A stretch of DNA of 64,000 nucleotides, taken from contig NZ_JAEMNV010000003.1 of assembly GCF_016482825.1 (NCBI RefSeq), forward strand, positions 310,001 through 374,000, read 5' to 3'. Source of the stretch: Antrihabitans stalagmiti (lineage in GTDB: Bacteria; Actinomycetota; Actinomycetes; Mycobacteriales; Mycobacteriaceae). Under the pieces are notes generated by a model. That model made no database searches, had not been told where the DNA came from, and was given only the letters and a program-made list of their open reading frames with translations. This document shows positions 2,585 to 16,138 of the stretch, piece by piece (the first letter of the stretch is position 1; every line of letters begins with the position of its first letter). The position numbers and the translations under genes were made by a program.

Positions 2585-3103
2585 CTAGTCGAGTTCCCTG
2601 CGAAACTCGGCCGGGCTTCCTGCGTACACCGAATTCGGTTTGCAATCACGCGTGACCAGCGAGTTCGCACCGACGATGGTGCCTGATCCGATCGTCACAC
2701 CCGGCATGATCGCCGCACCAGATCCGATCCAGGCACCGTCGCCGATCATGACGCTCTCCGATTTGAGCGTCGACGCCCGCTGCGCAGCGCTGCCGATCTC
2801 GTGGCTGCTGGTGAGGACCCGGACATGGTCGGCGAGAAAGACGCTGTTTCCGATGGTGATATCGGCGACCGTGTCGAAGTAGCAGCCGTAGTTGACGAAG
2901 CAACCCGACCCGAGGCGCAGGGTCCCGAGGCCCTGCACCACAACTCCGCGATGCACAAGCGACGGAGTGCCTGCGACGACCCCTGCGTGCCTCAGCACTC
3001 GCATTCTCGAACGGCTGTTCAAGATCGGAAGATTGGCCAGTGCTACGAACACCGATTGTCTGCGATAAGTAACCCCCATAAAAACACCATAGGCCTGTGA
3101 CAT
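2585..3103 (-). CDS. Hexapeptide-repeat acyltransferase (WbbJ/NodL/LacA-like)
   Basis: The C-terminal two thirds is a left-handed beta-helix built of hexapeptide repeats (for example VMIGDG, AWIGSG, AAIMPG, VTIGSG, TIVGAN), and it ends in the family signature around NSVYAGSPAEFRREL. Such enzymes transfer an acetyl group from acetyl-CoA to a hydroxyl of a sugar or glycolipid; the SSHEIG segment carries the likely catalytic histidine. The start is uncertain: ATG at 3103 gives 172 residues and ATG at 3079 gives 164. The frame is open to 3184, but that extension reads through a repeated 12-mer and looks non-coding. The acceptor is unknown. The nearest functional neighbour, glucosylglycerate hydrolase, is transcribed in the same direction 96 bp upstream, so read-through is possible. 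Confidence 0.8.
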   Translation of the reverse strand: MSQAYGVFMGVTYRRQSVFVALANLPILNSRSRMRVLRHAGVVAGTPSLVHRGVVVQGLGTLRLGSGCFVNYGCYFDTVADITIGNSVFLADHVRVLTSSHEIGSAAQRASTLKSESVMIGDGAWIGSGAAIMPGVTIGSGTIVGANSLVTRDCKPNSVYAGSPAEFRRELD

Positions 3104-3143
3104 TCCTGGCGCCGGCCGGGCTTCACGCGTGAGCTTCCCTCCT

Positions 3144-3168
3144 CGCTCACTCGCTGCGCTCACTCGCT
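3144..3168. repeat. Direct repeat CGCTCACTCGCT x2
   Basis: Two perfect copies of CGCTCACTCGCT (3144-3155 and 3157-3168) are separated by one base, between the acyltransferase and ggH. The core CGCTCACTC recurs in the hairpin arm at 9294. This resembles the GAGTGAGCG-rich dispersed repeats common in actinobacterial intergenic DNA. Confidence 0.6.
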
Positions 3169-3199
3169 CGTCAGTCCAGCCCACGCGGCCCGGCCGGCG

Positions 3200-4543
3200 C
3201 TACCCCAACCAGTCGAGGACCGAAGCCGCCGTCCACGACTGCTGCATACTCCCCAACGGCTCGCCGGTGAAGGGTTCGTAGTACTCCGCGAAGCTGCCGT
3301 CACTGGCCTGGCGTAAACCCTCTGCACGCAGGCCGAGCGAACGTTCCGCCCAACCCCGACGCGCGAAAGCCCAGGAGAACAGCCAACTCATCACCGGCCA
3401 CACCGGACCCCGCCAGTACTCGCGGGGCCGGAAGTACTTGGAGACCGGTGACGTCGACGGCGGCAGTGCGTAGCGGAGGTCGGGGTGACCACAGAATCGC
3501 GGACCCTCGAAGATTCTCAGCAGATTGCGCTCTTGGGCGCGAGGAAGCCCGCCGCACAACAGCGGTGCGAACATTGCGAGCGTTTCCGTACTGATCCAGC
3601 GGCCGAGTCGAACGTCGAAGTCGCGTGCCGCGCCAGAACGTTCGTCGGTCGTCGCGACGACGCCTTTGCGGAAGTGGTCGGCCCAATAGTGCAGCTCACG
3701 GACATCGGAGTTGGGTTGCGAATACTCCTCACCGATGTGAGCGAGGACGTCGCACGCCAATGCGAAGATCGCGCTGACGAACACGTCCTCCACTGCGAAG
3801 CTCATGGTTGCTGCGAGTTGCGTGTCGTCGTAACGGGATTGACGCATTTCTTCGAGCAGCCACAGGTACCGGTCATATTCCACGTTGCTTGGTCGCTGCG
3901 ACGAATCGGTGACGATCGCGGTGTCTTCGCGCTGGTACGGGGGCAGCTCGCCAGGGATGACGTTGCTGTAGGCGCGATCCCAGCGTGGCGAGTTGTCCAT
4001 GCCGGATTCCCACCCGTGGTACAGCGTGATTCGACCGCGTTCGTCCTGGTCACGAGCATGGGCGAGCCAGCGGTGCCAGCGCACGAGGTCGGGCCAGCGG
4101 CGGTTCAGGAACTCTTCTGCGACCGACCGGGTGGTGCGTCCGTGCTTGCGGGAATGGTCGAGGATTCGTTGTAGTGCGATCGCGTGGACCGGCGGTTGCG
4201 TGATGCCCGACGTATCCGGACCCAGTGGTGCGAACGCGGCGAGTTCTCTGCACTCCCAGCGCGCGGGCCCGGGAAAGTAGCCGTCGACACCGTTTGCGAA
4301 CACGATGTGCGGAATCATGCCGTTCTTCCACTGTGCAGACAGCAGGGTGTCGAGTTCGACGACCGCGCGCTCGACGCTCAGCGGCGCTAGACCGACCGCG
4401 ACGAAGGCCGCATCCCAGCTCCACATGTGTGGATACAGGCGCGGGGCGGCGCTGGTCATCGTGCCCAGGTCGTTGCCGCGGAGCAGGTATGCAGCGCGGG
4501 CAGCCAGCTGTGTCGGGGTGAATCCACGGTCGGCCATGGTCAT
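3200..4543 (-). CDS. ggH: Glucosylglycerate hydrolase (GH63)
   Basis: At 447 residues this matches mycobacterial glucosylglycerate hydrolase (446 in M. hassiacum as I recall it) almost end to end, including the N-terminal TPTQLAARAAYLLRGND and the C-terminal GSMQQSWTAA. It hydrolyses 2-O-alpha-D-glucosyl-D-glycerate to glucose and glycerate; the solute accumulates under nitrogen limitation and is consumed when nitrogen returns. The catalytic acid and base known from the M. hassiacum enzyme (Asp182 and Glu419) correspond to Asp183 in GMDNSPRW and Glu420 in FAEYYEP. There is no signal peptide, so it acts in the cytoplasm. Its start lies 23 bp from that of the divergent SDR gene. ATG at 4537 is an alternative start. 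Confidence 0.93.
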   Translation of the reverse strand: MTMADRGFTPTQLAARAAYLLRGNDLGTMTSAAPRLYPHMWSWDAAFVAVGLAPLSVERAVVELDTLLSAQWKNGMIPHIVFANGVDGYFPGPARWECRELAAFAPLGPDTSGITQPPVHAIALQRILDHSRKHGRTTRSVAEEFLNRRWPDLVRWHRWLAHARDQDERGRITLYHGWESGMDNSPRWDRAYSNVIPGELPPYQREDTAIVTDSSQRPSNVEYDRYLWLLEEMRQSRYDDTQLAATMSFAVEDVFVSAIFALACDVLAHIGEEYSQPNSDVRELHYWADHFRKGVVATTDERSGAARDFDVRLGRWISTETLAMFAPLLCGGLPRAQERNLLRIFEGPRFCGHPDLRYALPPSTSPVSKYFRPREYWRGPVWPVMSWLFSWAFARRGWAERSLGLRAEGLRQASDGSFAEYYEPFTGEPLGSMQQSWTAASVLDWLG

Positions 4544-4553
4544 ATTGTGGGGC

Positions 4554-4559
4554 TAACCT
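4554..4559 (+). promoter_or_regulatory. -10 element for a leaderless SDR transcript
   Basis: TAACCT followed by 7 bp and then the ATG at 4567 places transcription start at or next to the start codon. No Shine-Dalgarno sequence precedes this ATG. The element lies in the 23-bp gap shared with ggH. Confidence 0.5.
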
Positions 4560-4566
4560 CGGATGT

Positions 4567-5244
4567 ATGCGACCGACAGCATTGATCACCGGTGCCAGCC
4601 GCGGACTCGGCGCCGCCATCGCGCGCGAACTCGCACCGACCCACGACCTGTTTGTCGGAGCCCGAACGCCGGACGCGCTGACCGCTCTGATCGACGAAAT
4701 TCCCGACGCTCGTGCCTGGCCAGCCGATCTCACCGACTACGACGCCGTTGCCGAAGCCGCCAGTGCCATAACGAAACTCGACGTTCTCGTGCACAATGCC
4801 GGTGTCGCCGATCTCGGCACGATCGCAGAATCGAGCGTCGAGCAGTGGCGGCACACGTTGGAAGGCAACGTCATTGCCGTCGCCGAACTCACCCGACTGC
4901 TCCTTCCTGTGCTGCGTGCATCGAAAGGCCATGTGGTACTCATCAATTCGGGTGCCGGTCTGCGCGCGAACGCGGGCTGGGCCTCGTATGCGGCGAGCAA
5001 GTTCGCGCTGCGGGCATTCGGCGACGCGCTTCGACTCGAAGAACCCGACCTTCGCGTCACATCCATCCACCCGGGCCGGATCGACACCGACATGCAGCGG
5101 GAAATCATCGGTCACGAAGGTCGCGAATACAACGCCGACGAATTTCTGACCGCGCAGACCGTTGCCCGGACTGTTGCCAACGCGATCGCGACACCGCGCG
5201 ACGCCCATCCGACCGAAATCGTGTTGCGACCGATCAAACGCTGA
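4567..5244 (+). CDS. Short-chain dehydrogenase/reductase (SDR)
   Basis: This 225-residue classical SDR carries the nucleotide-binding motif TGASRGLG near the N terminus, the NAG motif (VHNAGVAD), the catalytic Ser in INSGAG and the YxxxK pair in YAASKFALRAFGDALR. The PGRIDTDM loop after the active site is typical of the family. The Arg following the glycine motif suggests NADPH preference, but this is not certain. The substrate is unknown. It is transcribed divergently from ggH, with only 23 bp between the starts and an apparent leaderless promoter. Its 3-prime end overlaps that of the convergent TetR gene by 11 bp. Confidence 0.85.
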   Translation: MRPTALITGASRGLGAAIARELAPTHDLFVGARTPDALTALIDEIPDARAWPADLTDYDAVAEAASAITKLDVLVHNAGVADLGTIAESSVEQWRHTLEGNVIAVAELTRLLLPVLRASKGHVVLINSGAGLRANAGWASYAASKFALRAFGDALRLEEPDLRVTSIHPGRIDTDMQREIIGHEGREYNADEFLTAQTVARTVANAIATPRDAHPTEIVLRPIKR

Positions 5245-12167: not shown

Positions 12168-12260
12168 AGGGCTCTCACATCTTCTCGGCGACAGTCTCGA
12201 AACTCGTGTATCAGCGTAAAGCGTCGTGAAACTCATTTATGCATGCAGGCAGTTCCGCCG

Positions 12261-12266
12261 TATCCT
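12261..12266 (+). promoter_or_regulatory. -10 element for a leaderless SdpI-like transcript
   Basis: TATCCT, 6 bp, then GTG 12273. No Shine-Dalgarno precedes the GTG. Confidence 0.4.
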
Positions 12267-12272
12267 GCATAC

Positions 12273-12665
12273 GTGGTTATCGTCGCTTCTGTCTTCTTCG
12301 TACTGGCGGTCGTCGTTGCAGGTGTCGGACTTGCAGGACTGACCGGCCAGTTGCCGCGCAACCGCTGGGCCGGAATCCGGACTGCGGAAACCCTGCGTGA
12401 CGACGCTGCATTCGAGCTTGCCAACAAAGTTGCTGCGCCCACAATGCTGGCCAGCGCCGGCGTGCTCGCGATCGGTGGCGTCGCCGCTTTCGCATTCAGC
12501 GGTGTCATCGCAATCGTCGCGGTCGTCGTCGCTGCATTCGCGGCATTGGTGATCGCCGGAATCGGTGGATCGATCGCAACTCGTGCAGTAGCTGCAACCG
12601 CCGCGGTCGATGGCTGTGGTGACGCGTGTGGTTCGTGCTCGCTCAAGGATGCCTGCGAGAAATGA
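12273..12665 (+). CDS. SdpI-family membrane protein with Cys-rich tail
   Basis: A 130-residue membrane protein with a first hydrophobic helix (VVIVASVFFVLAVVVAGVG), the SdpI-family signature around LPRNRWAGIRTAETLRDDAAFELANKVAAP, and two further hydrophobic segments. The family takes its name from the Bacillus SdpI immunity/signalling protein; most actinobacterial members are uncharacterised. The unusual part is the tail after the last helix: four cysteines spaced C-x3-C-x2-C-x5-C within about 14 residues, which could bind metal or form disulfides. GTG 12273 follows a TATCCT -10-like element by 6 bp, suggesting a leaderless message; ATG 12243 is the alternative. It lies about 100 bp before the MNIO cluster, transcribed the same way. 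Confidence 0.75.
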   Translation: MVIVASVFFVLAVVVAGVGLAGLTGQLPRNRWAGIRTAETLRDDAAFELANKVAAPTMLASAGVLAIGGVAAFAFSGVIAIVAVVVAAFAALVIAGIGGSIATRAVAATAAVDGCGDACGSCSLKDACEK

Positions 12666-12769
12666 GATGCTCCGCGTCGGCGCGAACCTGACGAGTACCT
12701 GCACTCGCTGACGCGCACGGGCGGCAAAAGTTCTACCGCCGTTCCAGTCCGCGCAGAAAGGTGATTGCG

Positions 12770-13702
12770 ATGTCGAACGTTTATGTAATCGCTGACGCAG
12801 TAACAGCAGCCGACACCTGGGGAATTCCGAGCGGGCAGTTCTTGCGCGGGTTCCTGGTGAGCGCCGTCATCGCGATCGTGCTCAGCATCTTCTTACGTAA
12901 GGCATACACCCGCAGCGTGTCGAATCCGCGCGGCAGCGTCGGTCCGTTGACCCCGCCCGAAATGGGCATGCTGGTTTCCGACGAACGGGCAGTGCTGGCG
13001 GCGCTCGCGCTGCTGCGTGGAGCGCAGTTGATCACCGCCACCGGCATCGCTCGATCGATGACAACAGCCGACACACACGCTCTGGATCCGTTCACGCGCA
13101 GCGTGTACGACCGGATCGCAATGGGCGGGTCGCTGTCGGTCGGCGCGCTGACGTCCTCGCTCACCGTTCCCCTTGCGCAGCTGCGCGGTTCGCTTGTGGA
13201 CCGCGGTCTACTCGTCGGGCCCGACCATCGGCGCGCGGCGAAGATGGCAACCGTACCGATCGTCGTCGTCGGCGTTGTCGGACTGCTTCGCGTCATCGCG
13301 GGGGTGCTGAACGGAAAGCCGGTCTTCTTCCTCATTTTGGCCCTCGTAATGCTGACGATGGCGGGTCTGCTTGTCGCGCGGTCCTCACGTCGTACCCGGC
13401 GCGGTATGACCGAGATGATGATCGCGTGGCAGAACAACGCGCATCTGCGACCGAGTCGCGCGCCTGCGCTCGGGTCCTACGGACCTGCGAGCGCAGCCGT
13501 GTCCGCCGCGATCTTCGGTGGCGCTGCACTGTGGTTGCTCGATCCCGCTGTCGCCGGTGCGTCCGGGGTGTCGTCGTCGGAATCGTCGGGCGGCATTTTT
13601 TCATCGGGCGACGGCGGCTCGTCGTCGAGCGGAGACGGTGGCGGATCAAGCTGCGGTGGGGGCGGCGGTTGTGGTGGCGGTGGTGGCGGATGCGGGGGCT
13701 GA
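12770..13702 (+). CDS. TIGR04222-type membrane protein with Gly/Cys tail (possible MNIO substrate)
   Basis: The 310-residue protein has an N-terminal transmembrane helix (about 20-40), a soluble domain of the TIGR04222 type with LTPPEMGMLV and DRGLL motifs, two central helices (about 165-210) and one further hydrophobic segment (about 245-265). The last 45 residues are almost only Ser and Gly with three cysteines near the end, spaced C-G5-C-G6-C-G-G (Cys295, Cys301, Cys308). Proteins of this family typically end this way and sit beside a DUF692 gene. That gene starts inside this one (13-bp overlap), so the two are translationally coupled. I infer that the tail is a modification substrate; this is not shown. 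The ATG at 12770 follows AAAGG by 8 bp; an in-frame GTG lies 9 bp upstream. Confidence 0.82.
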   Translation: MSNVYVIADAVTAADTWGIPSGQFLRGFLVSAVIAIVLSIFLRKAYTRSVSNPRGSVGPLTPPEMGMLVSDERAVLAALALLRGAQLITATGIARSMTTADTHALDPFTRSVYDRIAMGGSLSVGALTSSLTVPLAQLRGSLVDRGLLVGPDHRRAAKMATVPIVVVGVVGLLRVIAGVLNGKPVFFLILALVMLTMAGLLVARSSRRTRRGMTEMMIAWQNNAHLRPSRAPALGSYGPASAAVSAAIFGGAALWLLDPAVAGASGVSSSESSGGIFSSGDGGSSSSGDGGGSSCGGGGGCGGGGGGCGG

Positions 13703-14553
13703 GCAGCCCGCTCGCCGATCGTGGACTCGGGATGGGTTGGCGACCGGAGATCTGCGGCATCATCGCGCAACTCGACATCGGCTTCTGCGAGGTGATCGCG
13801 GAGTCACTGGTAAGTGGGAATCGCGGGTTGGCCATACCCGATGAGTTGACGGTATTGCGTTCCCGCGGTGTTCCCGTTGTTCCGCACGGCATTTCACTGT
13901 CGATAGGTGGCGTCGACGATGTCGATTCGGCACGGATCGCCCATCTGGCCGCCTGCGCCGACGCCCTCGACGCGCCGTTGGTCAGCGAGCACATCGCATT
14001 CGTCCGCGCCGATGGCGTCGAAGCCGGTCATCTGTTGCCGATGCCCCGAACGGCCGAAGCGCTGGACGTTTTGACGCGCAATATCCGCCGTGTTCAGGAC
14101 GGGCTCGAGGTGCCGTTCGCAGTCGAGAACATCGCAGCATTGTTCGATTGGCCCGATGCCGAATACAGCGAATCCGAATTTCTCGCCGAGTTGATCGAAC
14201 GGACCGGTGTGTACCTGCTGCTCGACATCGCCAACGTCTATGCGAACGCCCGCAACCGGGGTCTCGACGCCAGCGCAGAACTCGCCCGCCTACCGATCGA
14301 GCAGATCGCATACTGCCACGTCGCAGGCGGCAGCGAATTCGACGGGATGTATCACGACACTCACACCGATCGGGTGCCGGAGGAGGTCCTCGCCCTGGTC
14401 GGCGAGCTCCGCGCGGCAACATCTGCACCTCTGATGCTCGAACTCGACGGCAACTATCCGCCCGCTGCGGCACTGCTCGCCGAGCTCGACGCGATCGCAG
14501 ATTCGGCCGGTCTGGACCGAATCACCGCAGCAACAGAATGGTCGAATCGATGA
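13690..14553 (+). CDS. DUF692 multinuclear non-heme iron oxygenase (MNIO, MbnB/TglH/BufB-like)
   Basis: This 287-residue TIM-barrel protein belongs to DUF692, the multinuclear iron oxygenases that modify cysteines in peptides (oxazolone/thioamide in methanobactin, thiooxazole in bufferins). All expected metal-ligand positions can be seen: His66 (VPHGISL), His101 (SEHIAF), Glu146 (VENIA), Asp179 and Asn182 (LLDIANVYAN), His210 (YCHVAGG), Asp223/His225 (HDTHTD) and Glu251 (LELDGN). The start overlaps the upstream gene by 13 bp, and the stop overlaps the next gene in an ATGA. In known MNIO systems a small partner protein presents the peptide; here that role would fall to the gene at 14550. The substrate is probably the Gly/Cys tail encoded just upstream. 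Confidence 0.92.
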   Translation: MRGLSSPLADRGLGMGWRPEICGIIAQLDIGFCEVIAESLVSGNRGLAIPDELTVLRSRGVPVVPHGISLSIGGVDDVDSARIAHLAACADALDAPLVSEHIAFVRADGVEAGHLLPMPRTAEALDVLTRNIRRVQDGLEVPFAVENIAALFDWPDAEYSESEFLAELIERTGVYLLLDIANVYANARNRGLDASAELARLPIEQIAYCHVAGGSEFDGMYHDTHTDRVPEEVLALVGELRAATSAPLMLELDGNYPPAAALLAELDAIADSAGLDRITAATEWSNR

Positions 14554-14885
14554 CGGACGGTTTGGCGGCGCGGCAGGCCGCGTTGGTTCGGGCGTTGGTC
14601 GCGGGCGCAGAACCACCCGAAGGCTTCGATCGGGATGCACTCGCCACAGCGTCCCGAGCACTGCTTCGCAAACGCGCGCAGGAGGTCGGTCGGCGGTATC
14701 CGCGACTGACGTATGCGTGCGGGGATCGCTTCCAGGACCTCTACTGCGCCTGGGCAAAAGACCGACCGAAGACGACGACATACGCCGACGCGCGTGCCTT
14801 CGCCGACCACCTCACGGCGATCGGACTGCAACCGGTAGCGCGGTCGCGCTGGCCGTGGCGGCACCGGAAGCCGGCGACGCTGTGA
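14550..14885 (+). CDS. Small MNIO partner-like protein (SCO6045-like)
   Basis: A 111-residue basic protein that starts in an ATGA overlap with the MNIO gene, so the two are made together. It is helical at the front (LAARQAALVRALVAGAEPP) and contains a conserved-looking block YACGDRFQDLYCAWAKDRP with two cysteines. It resembles the short proteins that follow DUF692 genes in Streptomyces (SCO6045 follows SCO6044). The place of a DUF2063-type or other partner protein in MNIO systems suggests a substrate-binding role, but sequence alone does not prove it. The stop codon lies in the first unit of a 17-bp triple repeat. Confidence 0.7.
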   Translation: MTDGLAARQAALVRALVAGAEPPEGFDRDALATASRALLRKRAQEVGRRYPRLTYACGDRFQDLYCAWAKDRPKTTTYADARAFADHLTAIGLQPVARSRWPWRHRKPATL

Positions 14886-14921
14886 AGCCGGTGACGCTGT
14901 GAAGCTGGCGACGCTGTGAAG
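14871..14921. repeat. 17-bp tandem repeat, three copies, across a stop/start junction
   Basis: Units CCGGCGACGCTGTGAAG, CCGGTGACGCTGTGAAG and CTGGCGACGCTGTGAAG run head to tail. The first contains the stop of the MNIO partner gene, and the third contains the GTG start of the DUF1648 gene. Confidence 0.9.
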
Positions 14922-15887
14922 CACAAACGTCTGATCGACCCCGTCGGCCTCGTGTTCGGCATCATCGTGCCGATACTCGCCGCCGCGGTCGGGATCGCCG
15001 TGACCGCGCTGCTGAAATCGCGCCTACCCGACCAGATTGCGACGCACTGGACGGCCGCCAAACCGGATTCGTTCTCCGAGCCGATGACCTTCGCCTGGGT
15101 GTTCGCGCTCGTGATCGTGTTGATCGGCGGCGGATGCTGCGCTGTCGCAGCATTGGCGCAGGCACTGCTGCTGATGCGGCGAGCGATGCTGCTGCTCGGG
15201 CTGACGATCGTCGGGCTGTTGTTCACTTTGCAGATCACGATCCTGGTGATCCAGCTCGACCGCGACTCCGTGACCGACGTGCGCCTGCCGTGGCCGGTCA
15301 TCAGTCTGGGCGTGCTCGCCGGAATCCTGTTCGGCAGTACCGGCGCAGCGATGTTGCGTGACTTCCGTGTCCGGATCCGCGCCGAGGAACCACCGCCACC
15401 GACGCTGCCGCGCGGGGTGCTGGCCTCGATCGAAGACACCGTCGGGTTCAGCCGAATGGGATCGGTCGTCGTTGCGACGTCGGTGGTCGCAGTCGCGGCG
15501 GTCGGTTGTCTCTTCGTCGATGCAACATGGCCCCTTGTTGCGACCGTGCCCGTCGTCCTTGTCCTGCTGGCATTGATGCGTTTCGAAGTGATCGTCGACT
15601 CGACCGGGGTGCGGGTCCGCAATTTCGGTCTCACGTCGATAGACATCTCGATCGACGAGATCACCGGAGCAAAGTCGGTCCACGTCAATCCGTTCAAGGA
15701 CTACGGCGGTTGGGGGCTGCGCGCGAAAGGCCGCGGCCGCTACGGGATCGTCACCACCACCGGACCTGCCGTCGAGATCGGTGCGGCAAGTGGGCTGATG
15801 CTGACGATCACCACCCAGCATGCCGACGCCATGGCAGGTGCAATCAATTCATTTGCCGATCGGCGCTCCGCGAACGTACACGGTTGA
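14916..15887 (+). CDS. DUF1648-domain membrane protein
   Basis: A 323-residue membrane protein. The DUF1648 signature (LPDQIATHWTAAKPDSF) follows the first transmembrane helix. Further hydrophobic helices lie at about 60-85, 90-112, 128-146 and 185-225, and a soluble C-terminal beta-rich domain of PH-like character ends the protein. DUF1648 occurs in SdpI-type and stress-related membrane proteins; a function cannot be assigned. The GTG start sits within the third copy of a 17-bp repeat, 30 bp after the previous stop, and no ribosome site is obvious. It is likely the last gene of the MNIO cluster; the SdpI relationship also links it to the gene at 12273. Confidence 0.8.
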   Translation: MKHKRLIDPVGLVFGIIVPILAAAVGIAVTALLKSRLPDQIATHWTAAKPDSFSEPMTFAWVFALVIVLIGGGCCAVAALAQALLLMRRAMLLLGLTIVGLLFTLQITILVIQLDRDSVTDVRLPWPVISLGVLAGILFGSTGAAMLRDFRVRIRAEEPPPPTLPRGVLASIEDTVGFSRMGSVVVATSVVAVAAVGCLFVDATWPLVATVPVVLVLLALMRFEVIVDSTGVRVRNFGLTSIDISIDEITGAKSVHVNPFKDYGGWGLRAKGRGRYGIVTTTGPAVEIGAASGLMLTITTQHADAMAGAINSFADRRSANVHG

Positions 15888-15902: not shown

Positions 15903-16138
15903 CGTCCCCGCGGGGACGTGTGGACGGTTTCAAGCCAGCATGCCGAAAGGCAGTGGAACTTCCGTGGTGAGGCGGCGGCGTGGTCGGTCGGACCGAGTTC
16001 CGGACGTCCCCGCGGGGACGCTTGATGGCCCGTTCTTGTCGGTAACTCCGTGGCTCGGCGGCTCGGGTGGCTCGGTCGCGCCGCTTCGACGTCCCCGCGG
16101 GGACGCGTGGGCTGCGTTCCGACGTCCCCGCGGGGACG
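15903..16138. repeat. Array of four identical 16-bp palindromes
   Basis: The perfect palindrome CGTCCCCGCGGGGACG occurs at 15903-15918, 16005-16020, 16090-16105 and 16123-16138. Start-to-start spacing is 102, 85 and 33 bp. The stretch 15888-16214 (327 bp) holds no gene; it lies just upstream of the HNH gene and I did not notice the palindrome elsewhere in the window. Confidence 0.9.

Follow-up and report, generated by a model that had tools for sequence, protein, structure and literature searches.

We examined a 64,000-nucleotide stretch of the Antrihabitans stalagmiti genome (the window), in which the gene for an MNIO (DUF692) enzyme lies in a compact locus that may encode a protein-tailoring system. 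The locus comprises three genes that overlap head to tail on the + strand, in the order TIGR04222 membrane protein, MNIO enzyme and small partner:

12770 to 13702, + strand: TIGR04222 membrane protein of 310 residues, the proposed substrate (112 bits; cut-off, 43)
13553 to 13699, + strand: Ser/Gly tail of this protein with Cys295, Cys301 and Cys308 (codons 13652-13654, 13670-13672 and 13691-13693)
13690 to 14553, + strand: MNIO (DUF692) enzyme of 287 residues, ATG start at 13690 (PF05114, 263.8 bits; cut-off, 25)
14550 to 14885, + strand: small partner of 111 residues, predicted all-helical, ATG start at 14550 in an ATGA overlap with the MNIO stop

An earlier sequence-only reading of this DNA had described a TIGR04222 protein with a Ser/Gly/Cys tail, an enzyme gene starting 13 bp inside the membrane protein gene and a partner gene starting in an ATGA overlap. 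All of this was confirmed, the first point from the coordinates and the 112-bit match, the second from the 13-nt overlap at 13690-13702 and the third from the position of the partner ATG. The TIGR04222 match passed the curated NCBIfam cut-off and runs from residue 28 to residue 255 of the protein, corresponding to positions 2 to 229 of the 229 in the profile; an alternative in-frame GTG start is possible at 12761. The protein has the C-terminus CGGGGGCGGGGGGCGG, with SSCGGGGGCGGGGGGCGG as its final residues. AlphaFold2 predicted its structure with a mean predicted local distance difference test score (pLDDT) of 82.2, and residues 277-310, which form part of the tail, scored below 50. The whole genome contains one TIGR04222 match and one PF05114 match. 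The locus also is present in genome G001 of the same genus (Antrihabitans, family Nocardiaceae), and locus L134 lies on an Antrihabitans cavernicola contig.

The PF05114 match on the MNIO enzyme passed the gathering cut-off and spans profile positions 2 to 260 of 263, and structure matches included 3bww (E = 4.6e-26) and 8hci (E = 3e-21). The earlier claim that all of the metal-ligand residues are present was upheld, in that the candidate ligands H66, H101, E146, D179, N182, H210, D223, H225, E251 and D253 were invariant wherever the residue was present in 112 aligned sequences. Those other than N182, D223 and H225 we take to be iron ligands. By motif, and from an alignment to 3bww, N182, D223 and H225 would be the counterparts of the HvfB site-3 ligands N175, D242 and H244 (PMC13419390; statements from this article and from Antoine et al. 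2025, PMC12452194, refer throughout to parts of each).

The genome sets searched comprised 251 genomes of the family, 326 of the phylum and a class set of 80 of the 114 TIGR04222-positive genomes. Within the family, TIGR04222 was found over its cut-off in 49 genomes and PF05114 in 66, with both present in 48. The phylum sample yielded TIGR04222 in 18 genomes, MNIO in 22 and both in 17, and MNIO was present in 51 genomes of the class set and in none of the other 29. In genome G003, MNIO and the partner are encoded on a different contig from the TIGR04222 gene, which retains 4 tail Cys residues. Five g23 genomes carry MNIO and the partner together, apart from their TIGR04222 genes.

The composition of the tails was analyzed in 109 TIGR04222 open reading frames (ORFs), from which 8 with a matched domain under 120 residues were dropped to leave 101 (97 unique proteins). 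Cys made up 421 of 5720 tail residues compared with 94 of 22187 residues in the preceding stretch and therefore was more frequent in the tails than expected by chance. The residue following a tail Cys was Gly in 360 of the 421 cases and Ser in 56. Recurrent features were a Cys placed between Gly or Ser residues and a terminal C-G-G, the latter found in 74 of the 90 TIGR04222 proteins of MNIO loci. These 90 unique proteins were drawn from family loci and from 32 named loci of Nocardia, Actinomadura, Thermomonospora and others (one of which, L119, is cut by a contig end); 87 of them have at least two tail Cys residues, and each of the other 3 has a Cys-tailed copy in its locus. The possibility that the terminal CGG is a by-product of the gene overlap was ruled out, because CGG is kept in L064, L087, L100 and L103, which lack MNIO.

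For a contrast between genomes with and without the enzyme, 60 of the 80 class genomes were read: every one of the 29 that lack MNIO, plus 31 that have it, none of these 31 being from genus f4/g34. A tail Cys was scored as [GS]C[GS] within the last 45 residues. Such residues were found in 27/31 cases with MNIO and in 2/29 without it (Fisher p = 1.1e-10); adding the 11 f4/g34 loci in which a TIGR04222 gene lies next to MNIO, 4 of them Cys-tailed, changed the contrast to 31/42 versus 2/29 (p = 1.0e-8), neither p value taking account of kinship. Of the 2 MNIO-less Cys-tailed cases, one, L205, shows a partial match to MNIO at a contig edge; in the other, L213, the Cys lies in an implausible frame. 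Gly-rich tails without MNIO (13/29) have Asp in place of Cys: in the last 30 residues, they average 3.85 Asp and 0.38 Cys, whereas those with MNIO (28/31) average 0.96 Asp and 3.71 Cys. Six Cys-tailed TIGR04222 proteins in MNIO-less loci all came from genomes with MNIO elsewhere, and the single Cys-less case in such loci, L095, belongs to genome G171, where MNIO was not found. Across the genomes compared, the tail Cys residues co-vary with the MNIO enzyme, and the 27/31 versus 2/29 contrast supports the earlier suggestion that the tail is the likely MNIO substrate.

Another type of tail was seen in L217, L219 and L223-L226, which are from MNIO-less genomes. Here, the TIGR04222 proteins have Gly tails bearing Asp or Glu together with an upstream LCxxAxxC motif, and they possibly represent a different metal-binding version.

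The small partner was detected with a profile built from its homologues. It was present beside MNIO in 48/49 family MNIO loci and in 32/32 named loci, always on the MNIO strand and with a median gap of about 30 nt between the matched stretches, which supports the view that the small gene encodes a dedicated partner. Among the 251 genomes of the family, 61 encode the partner, and 60 of these also have MNIO; in G194, the one that does not, the locus is decayed. All 25 class loci holding MNIO also have the partner, and in 7 of these the two are in one reading frame. In genus f4/g34, the partner is fused to the C terminus of MNIO in 13/13 MNIO loci. AlphaFold2 predicted an all-helical structure for the window partner (mean pLDDT, 88.9), and profile searches gave neither an NCBIfam match over the cut-off nor a consistent Pfam match. 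The partner fits the description of PME-type 2, being short, lacking the Pfam DUF2063 signature and encoded directly after MNIO. NGO1945/TglI chains were absent among its matches in the profile search against the PDB and in the Foldseek and VIA listings. Comparison by hhalign with one DUF2063 protein only was weak (E = 0.27 and 0.57). At L178 (4653-5329), the partner gene is fragmented over two frames and MNIO was not found in the genome, indicating a decaying locus.

MNIO loci that lack TIGR04222 revealed a second kind of tailed protein. Twenty-two of 25 such loci encode one or two small proteins of about 75 to 125 residues with a single N-terminal hydrophobic helix and a Ser/Gly/Cys tail; all 32 of these proteins are encoded on the MNIO strand within 753 bp of MNIO. 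The loci without a tail ORF were L182, L197 and L198, all with distant MNIO enzymes. The partners in the single-helix loci are homologous to the window partner (hhalign E = 2e-14). Because the same kind of tail is borne by single-helix proteins beside MNIO, the tail, and not the TIGR04222 domain, is the shared part. As read from these loci, the anchor is swapped: it is either the TIGR04222 protein or a small single-helix protein.

The background of the tail scan bears on the idea that the TIGR04222 protein serves MNIO as a chaperone, exporter or scaffold and that the true precursor is a small, uncalled peptide. In 790 kb of family loci, the scan, which is blind to other kinds of precursor, returned 66 tail ORFs, all of them TIGR04222 proteins, and a second lineage retains the tail where TIGR04222 was not found. 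Both results argue against a scaffold, whereas the existence of Cys-less TIGR04222 proteins beside the enzyme (see below) is in its favor, as is the fact that the characterized MNIO substrates named in the parts of PMC12452194 used here are mainly peptides. We regard this explanation as very improbable. In the window itself, one antisense ORF also passes the scan, and 133 kb of MNIO-less loci gave 2 tail ORFs, both in L205 (its TIGR04222 protein and a 43-residue ORF).

Our preferred interpretation, to which we assign a probability of roughly 0.7, is that the three genes form a protein-tailoring unit in which MNIO and its partner oxidize the tail Cys residues of the TIGR04222 protein, giving a tethered, modified tail. 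MNIO, together with the small helical partner, would act on Cys residues in the disordered Ser/Gly tail while the tail still is in the cytosol. The most likely products would be heterocycles of the thiooxazole type, like those of bufferins and oxazolins. The membrane anchor then would hold the modified tail at the membrane, where it probably would serve as a metal (copper-like) ligand, by analogy with bufferins. The sequence comparisons back this tailoring unit through the gene overlaps, the conserved and sometimes fused enzyme-partner pair, the co-variation of Cys with MNIO and the swapping of anchors. The odds are about even that the unit belongs to an actinomycete class of membrane-tethered tails that resemble ribosomally synthesized and posttranslationally modified peptides (RiPPs) but are never released, in which one MNIO-partner module serves interchangeable anchors with a constant Ser/Gly/Cys tail and yields permanent heterocycle brushes for metal handling.

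Several observations weigh against the tailoring unit. The window enzyme scored under the cut-off for every curated functional equivalog that it matched, including BufB (NF050167; 186.1 versus 310 bits) and HvfB (NF003818; 164 versus 360 bits). No metal-regulator motif was enriched upstream of the loci. TIGR04222 was undetected in 6 of the 32 named loci, 4 of these being cut by a contig end. Two MNIO loci, L065 and L116, have neither an adjacent TIGR04222 gene nor a tail ORF (these stand outside the 25 TIGR04222-less MNIO loci, as does the decayed, MNIO-less L178). The number and spacing of tail Cys residues also vary widely. The three-Cys Ser/Gly tail of the sequence-only reading fared well in the enrichment of Cys over the 97 proteins, but its even spacing is not a family feature, since spacings mostly are 3 to 9. 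The exact C-G5-C-G6-C string occurs in 4/97 proteins, which rules out C-G5-C-G6-C-G-G spacing as a signature. The cross-genome comparison that it had proposed thus upheld the co-occurrence of TIGR04222 and DUF692 (48 of 49 family TIGR04222 genomes have MNIO) and not the Cys spacing.

The exceptions to the link between MNIO and tail Cys cluster in genus f4/g34, from which the 27/31 versus 2/29 test contains no genome. In seven f4/g34 loci, the MNIO-partner fusion adjoins a TIGR04222 protein without tail Cys, which by eye also lacks the last hydrophobic segment; in two further loci of the genus, the fusion is present and a TIGR04222 match was found nowhere in the genome. L247 is another case of a fusion with a Cys-less TIGR04222 neighbor. 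Of the 7 f4/g34 genomes with a Cys-less neighbor, 4 encode elsewhere a TIGR04222 protein whose Gly-rich tail has one Cys; in the other 3, none was found. Homologous pairs without tail Cys, which the sequence-only reading had named as evidence against itself, therefore exist as a minority (the seven f4/g34 loci and L247), and the majority of pairs keep the tail Cys. On this comparison, the enzyme-tail rule appears strong but not universal.

It follows from the seven Cys-less neighbors that the enzyme there has another substrate or none nearby. This, and the loose Cys spacing, would suit an explanation in which the tail Cys residues are unmodified free thiols that act as metal or redox ligands and the MNIO-partner pair acts on another substrate, being merely co-inherited. 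However, thiol tails would have no need of an enzyme, Cys in Gly/Ser tails is almost absent without MNIO (2/29), and, next to the enzyme, tails of this kind are found on two different anchors. We consider free thiols improbable. All of the exceptions L116, L182, L197, L198, L234, L241, L247, L250 and L213 were kept in the counts; among these, L234 has a reading frame that runs past the Cys tail, L241 is an unlinked paralogue and L250 has another type of MNIO.

Other MNIO arrangements also were encountered. L116 encodes MNIO with neither a window-type partner nor a tail protein, and by eye its neighbors resemble another RiPP cluster; this different MNIO cluster (3534-4810) consists of a 127-residue protein with CACVCSYVCSC and MNIO, with a 245-residue protein downstream (2797-3534). 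L167 (5484-7919), from another family of the phylum, shows a bufferin-like order of a Cys-rich ORF (identified by eye), MNIO and a DUF2063 protein.

The side of the membrane on which the tail resides is the point at which the signals conflict, and this too counts against the preferred interpretation. With the enzyme and substrate unchanged, the tail could instead stay or work at the cytosolic side of the membrane, where it would buffer intracellular metal or act as a sensor, and not as an outward brush. The activity of MNIO enzymes in the cytosol is in favor of this placement. TIGR04222 proteins have a weak fourth hydrophobic segment, with a mean KD19 of 1.58 versus 2.14 and 2.51 for the others, and it reaches 1.6 in 42 of 92 proteins. 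Among the unique single-helix proteins, 26 of 31 (the start codon being unresolved in 4) are more positively charged on the C-terminal side of the helix than on the N-terminal side. Under the positive-inside rule, this favors a tail-in orientation. In contrast, net charge is greater before the last segment than after it in 67 of 92 TIGR04222 proteins, favoring a tail-out orientation, and Antoine et al. predict, in the parts cited, that the TIGR04222 tail is periplasmic (PMC12452194). We consider the cytosolic placement unlikely, albeit the most credible of the alternatives.

A weak similarity between TIGR04222 and the DUF2207 C-terminal domain was detected in 19/23 members, with E = 3e-4 at best and E = 1.1 for the protein of the window, and it is possible that the two form a wider family. 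At L077 (2903-5439), a TIGR04222 array lies near genes that, by eye only, resemble those of a metal ATP-binding cassette importer.

Two membrane protein genes flank the three-gene locus in the window:

12243 to 12665, + strand: SdpI-family protein, the upstream neighbor; 4-Cys tail, CGDACGSCSLKDAC (50.5 bits; cut-off, 28.2)
14916 to 15887, + strand: DUF1648 membrane protein, 30 bp past the partner gene (34.4 bits; cut-off, 28.7)

The sequence-only reading had included the DUF1648 gene in its span. This gene is a neighbor in only 5/56 loci; it was ruled out as a core gene and lies outside the conserved unit. Between it and the next gene, at 15904-16137, there are 4 exact copies of the palindrome GTCCCCGCGGGGAC, compared with 0 in 100 shuffles. 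The SdpI-family gene is near the locus in 10/56 loci, and its tie to the MNIO system is unproven. The SdpI-family protein has the C-terminus CGDACGSCSLKDACEK. Ten copies were found in family loci, counting that of the window; nine retain CGxxCGxCxLxxxC, and the remaining one is truncated at a contig end. This pattern may represent a metal site or a further substrate.

The core of the sequence-only interpretation appears largely right and already has been published as a prediction. Antoine et al. 2025 proposed that C-proximal Cys segments in subsets of TIGR04222 proteins are modified by MNIO, and the parts cited also report that over a quarter of TIGR04222 proteins lack C-proximal Cys, that MNIO is missing from a third of TIGR04222 genomes and that PME-type 2 short partners occur in at least 10% of TIGR04222 clusters, many being apparently partnerless (PMC12452194). 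The novelty that the sequence-only reading had implied for the substrate is not sustained, as tail modification and PME-type 2 partners both appear there. The window locus resembles those TIGR04222-MNIO clusters in having a Ser/Gly/Cys-tailed TIGR04222 protein next to MNIO, there sometimes with a PME-type 2 partner, and differs in that the partner is nearly constant in the loci sampled here and is fused to MNIO in one genus. The parts of PMC12452194 cited here contain no test of Cys tails against MNIO, no MNIO-partner fusion and no description of single-helix tail proteins; these parts do describe adjamnio-I (122-293 residues, 8-21 Cys, gene before MNIO), which differs from the single-helix proteins in size and order but could overlap with them. 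No experimental product of such a locus was reported in the titles and abstract openings listed by literature searches on such systems. What the present comparison adds is the test for co-variation of tail Cys with MNIO, a partner that is nearly constant and can be fused to the enzyme, and the swapping of anchors.

Bufferins and oxazolins, made by BufB/HvfB-type MNIO with a DUF2063 partner, share with the window locus the Pfam MNIO family, a partner gene and a Cys substrate. Thiooxazole chemistry and copper binding have been reported for them (PMC12452194 and PMC13419390, in part), and a related MNIO converts Cys to thiooxazole via a mixed-valent diiron center that forms only with the partner (PMC13419390). 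For an HvfBC fusion, the chromophore of the product was monitored by its absorbance near 302 nm (PMC13419390). Their precursors have Sec signal peptides, whereas the window candidate is a multi-pass membrane protein; the sequence of the window partner also is not recognizably that of a DUF2063 protein, and the enzyme scores far under the BufB/HvfB cut-offs. Methanobactin MbnB/MbnC and TglH/TglI likewise have the same enzyme family, a partner protein and a Cys target, their substrates being peptides; with 36.7 of 325 bits to the MbnB profile, the window enzyme is a distant relative.

The comparison offers a partner for loci previously reported without one. The natural MNIO-partner fusion is convenient for biochemistry, and expression of the single-helix candidate substrates would be far easier than that of the TIGR04222 protein. 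If the interpretation holds, a modification familiar mostly in peptide natural products would also decorate permanent membrane proteins, widely across actinomycetes.

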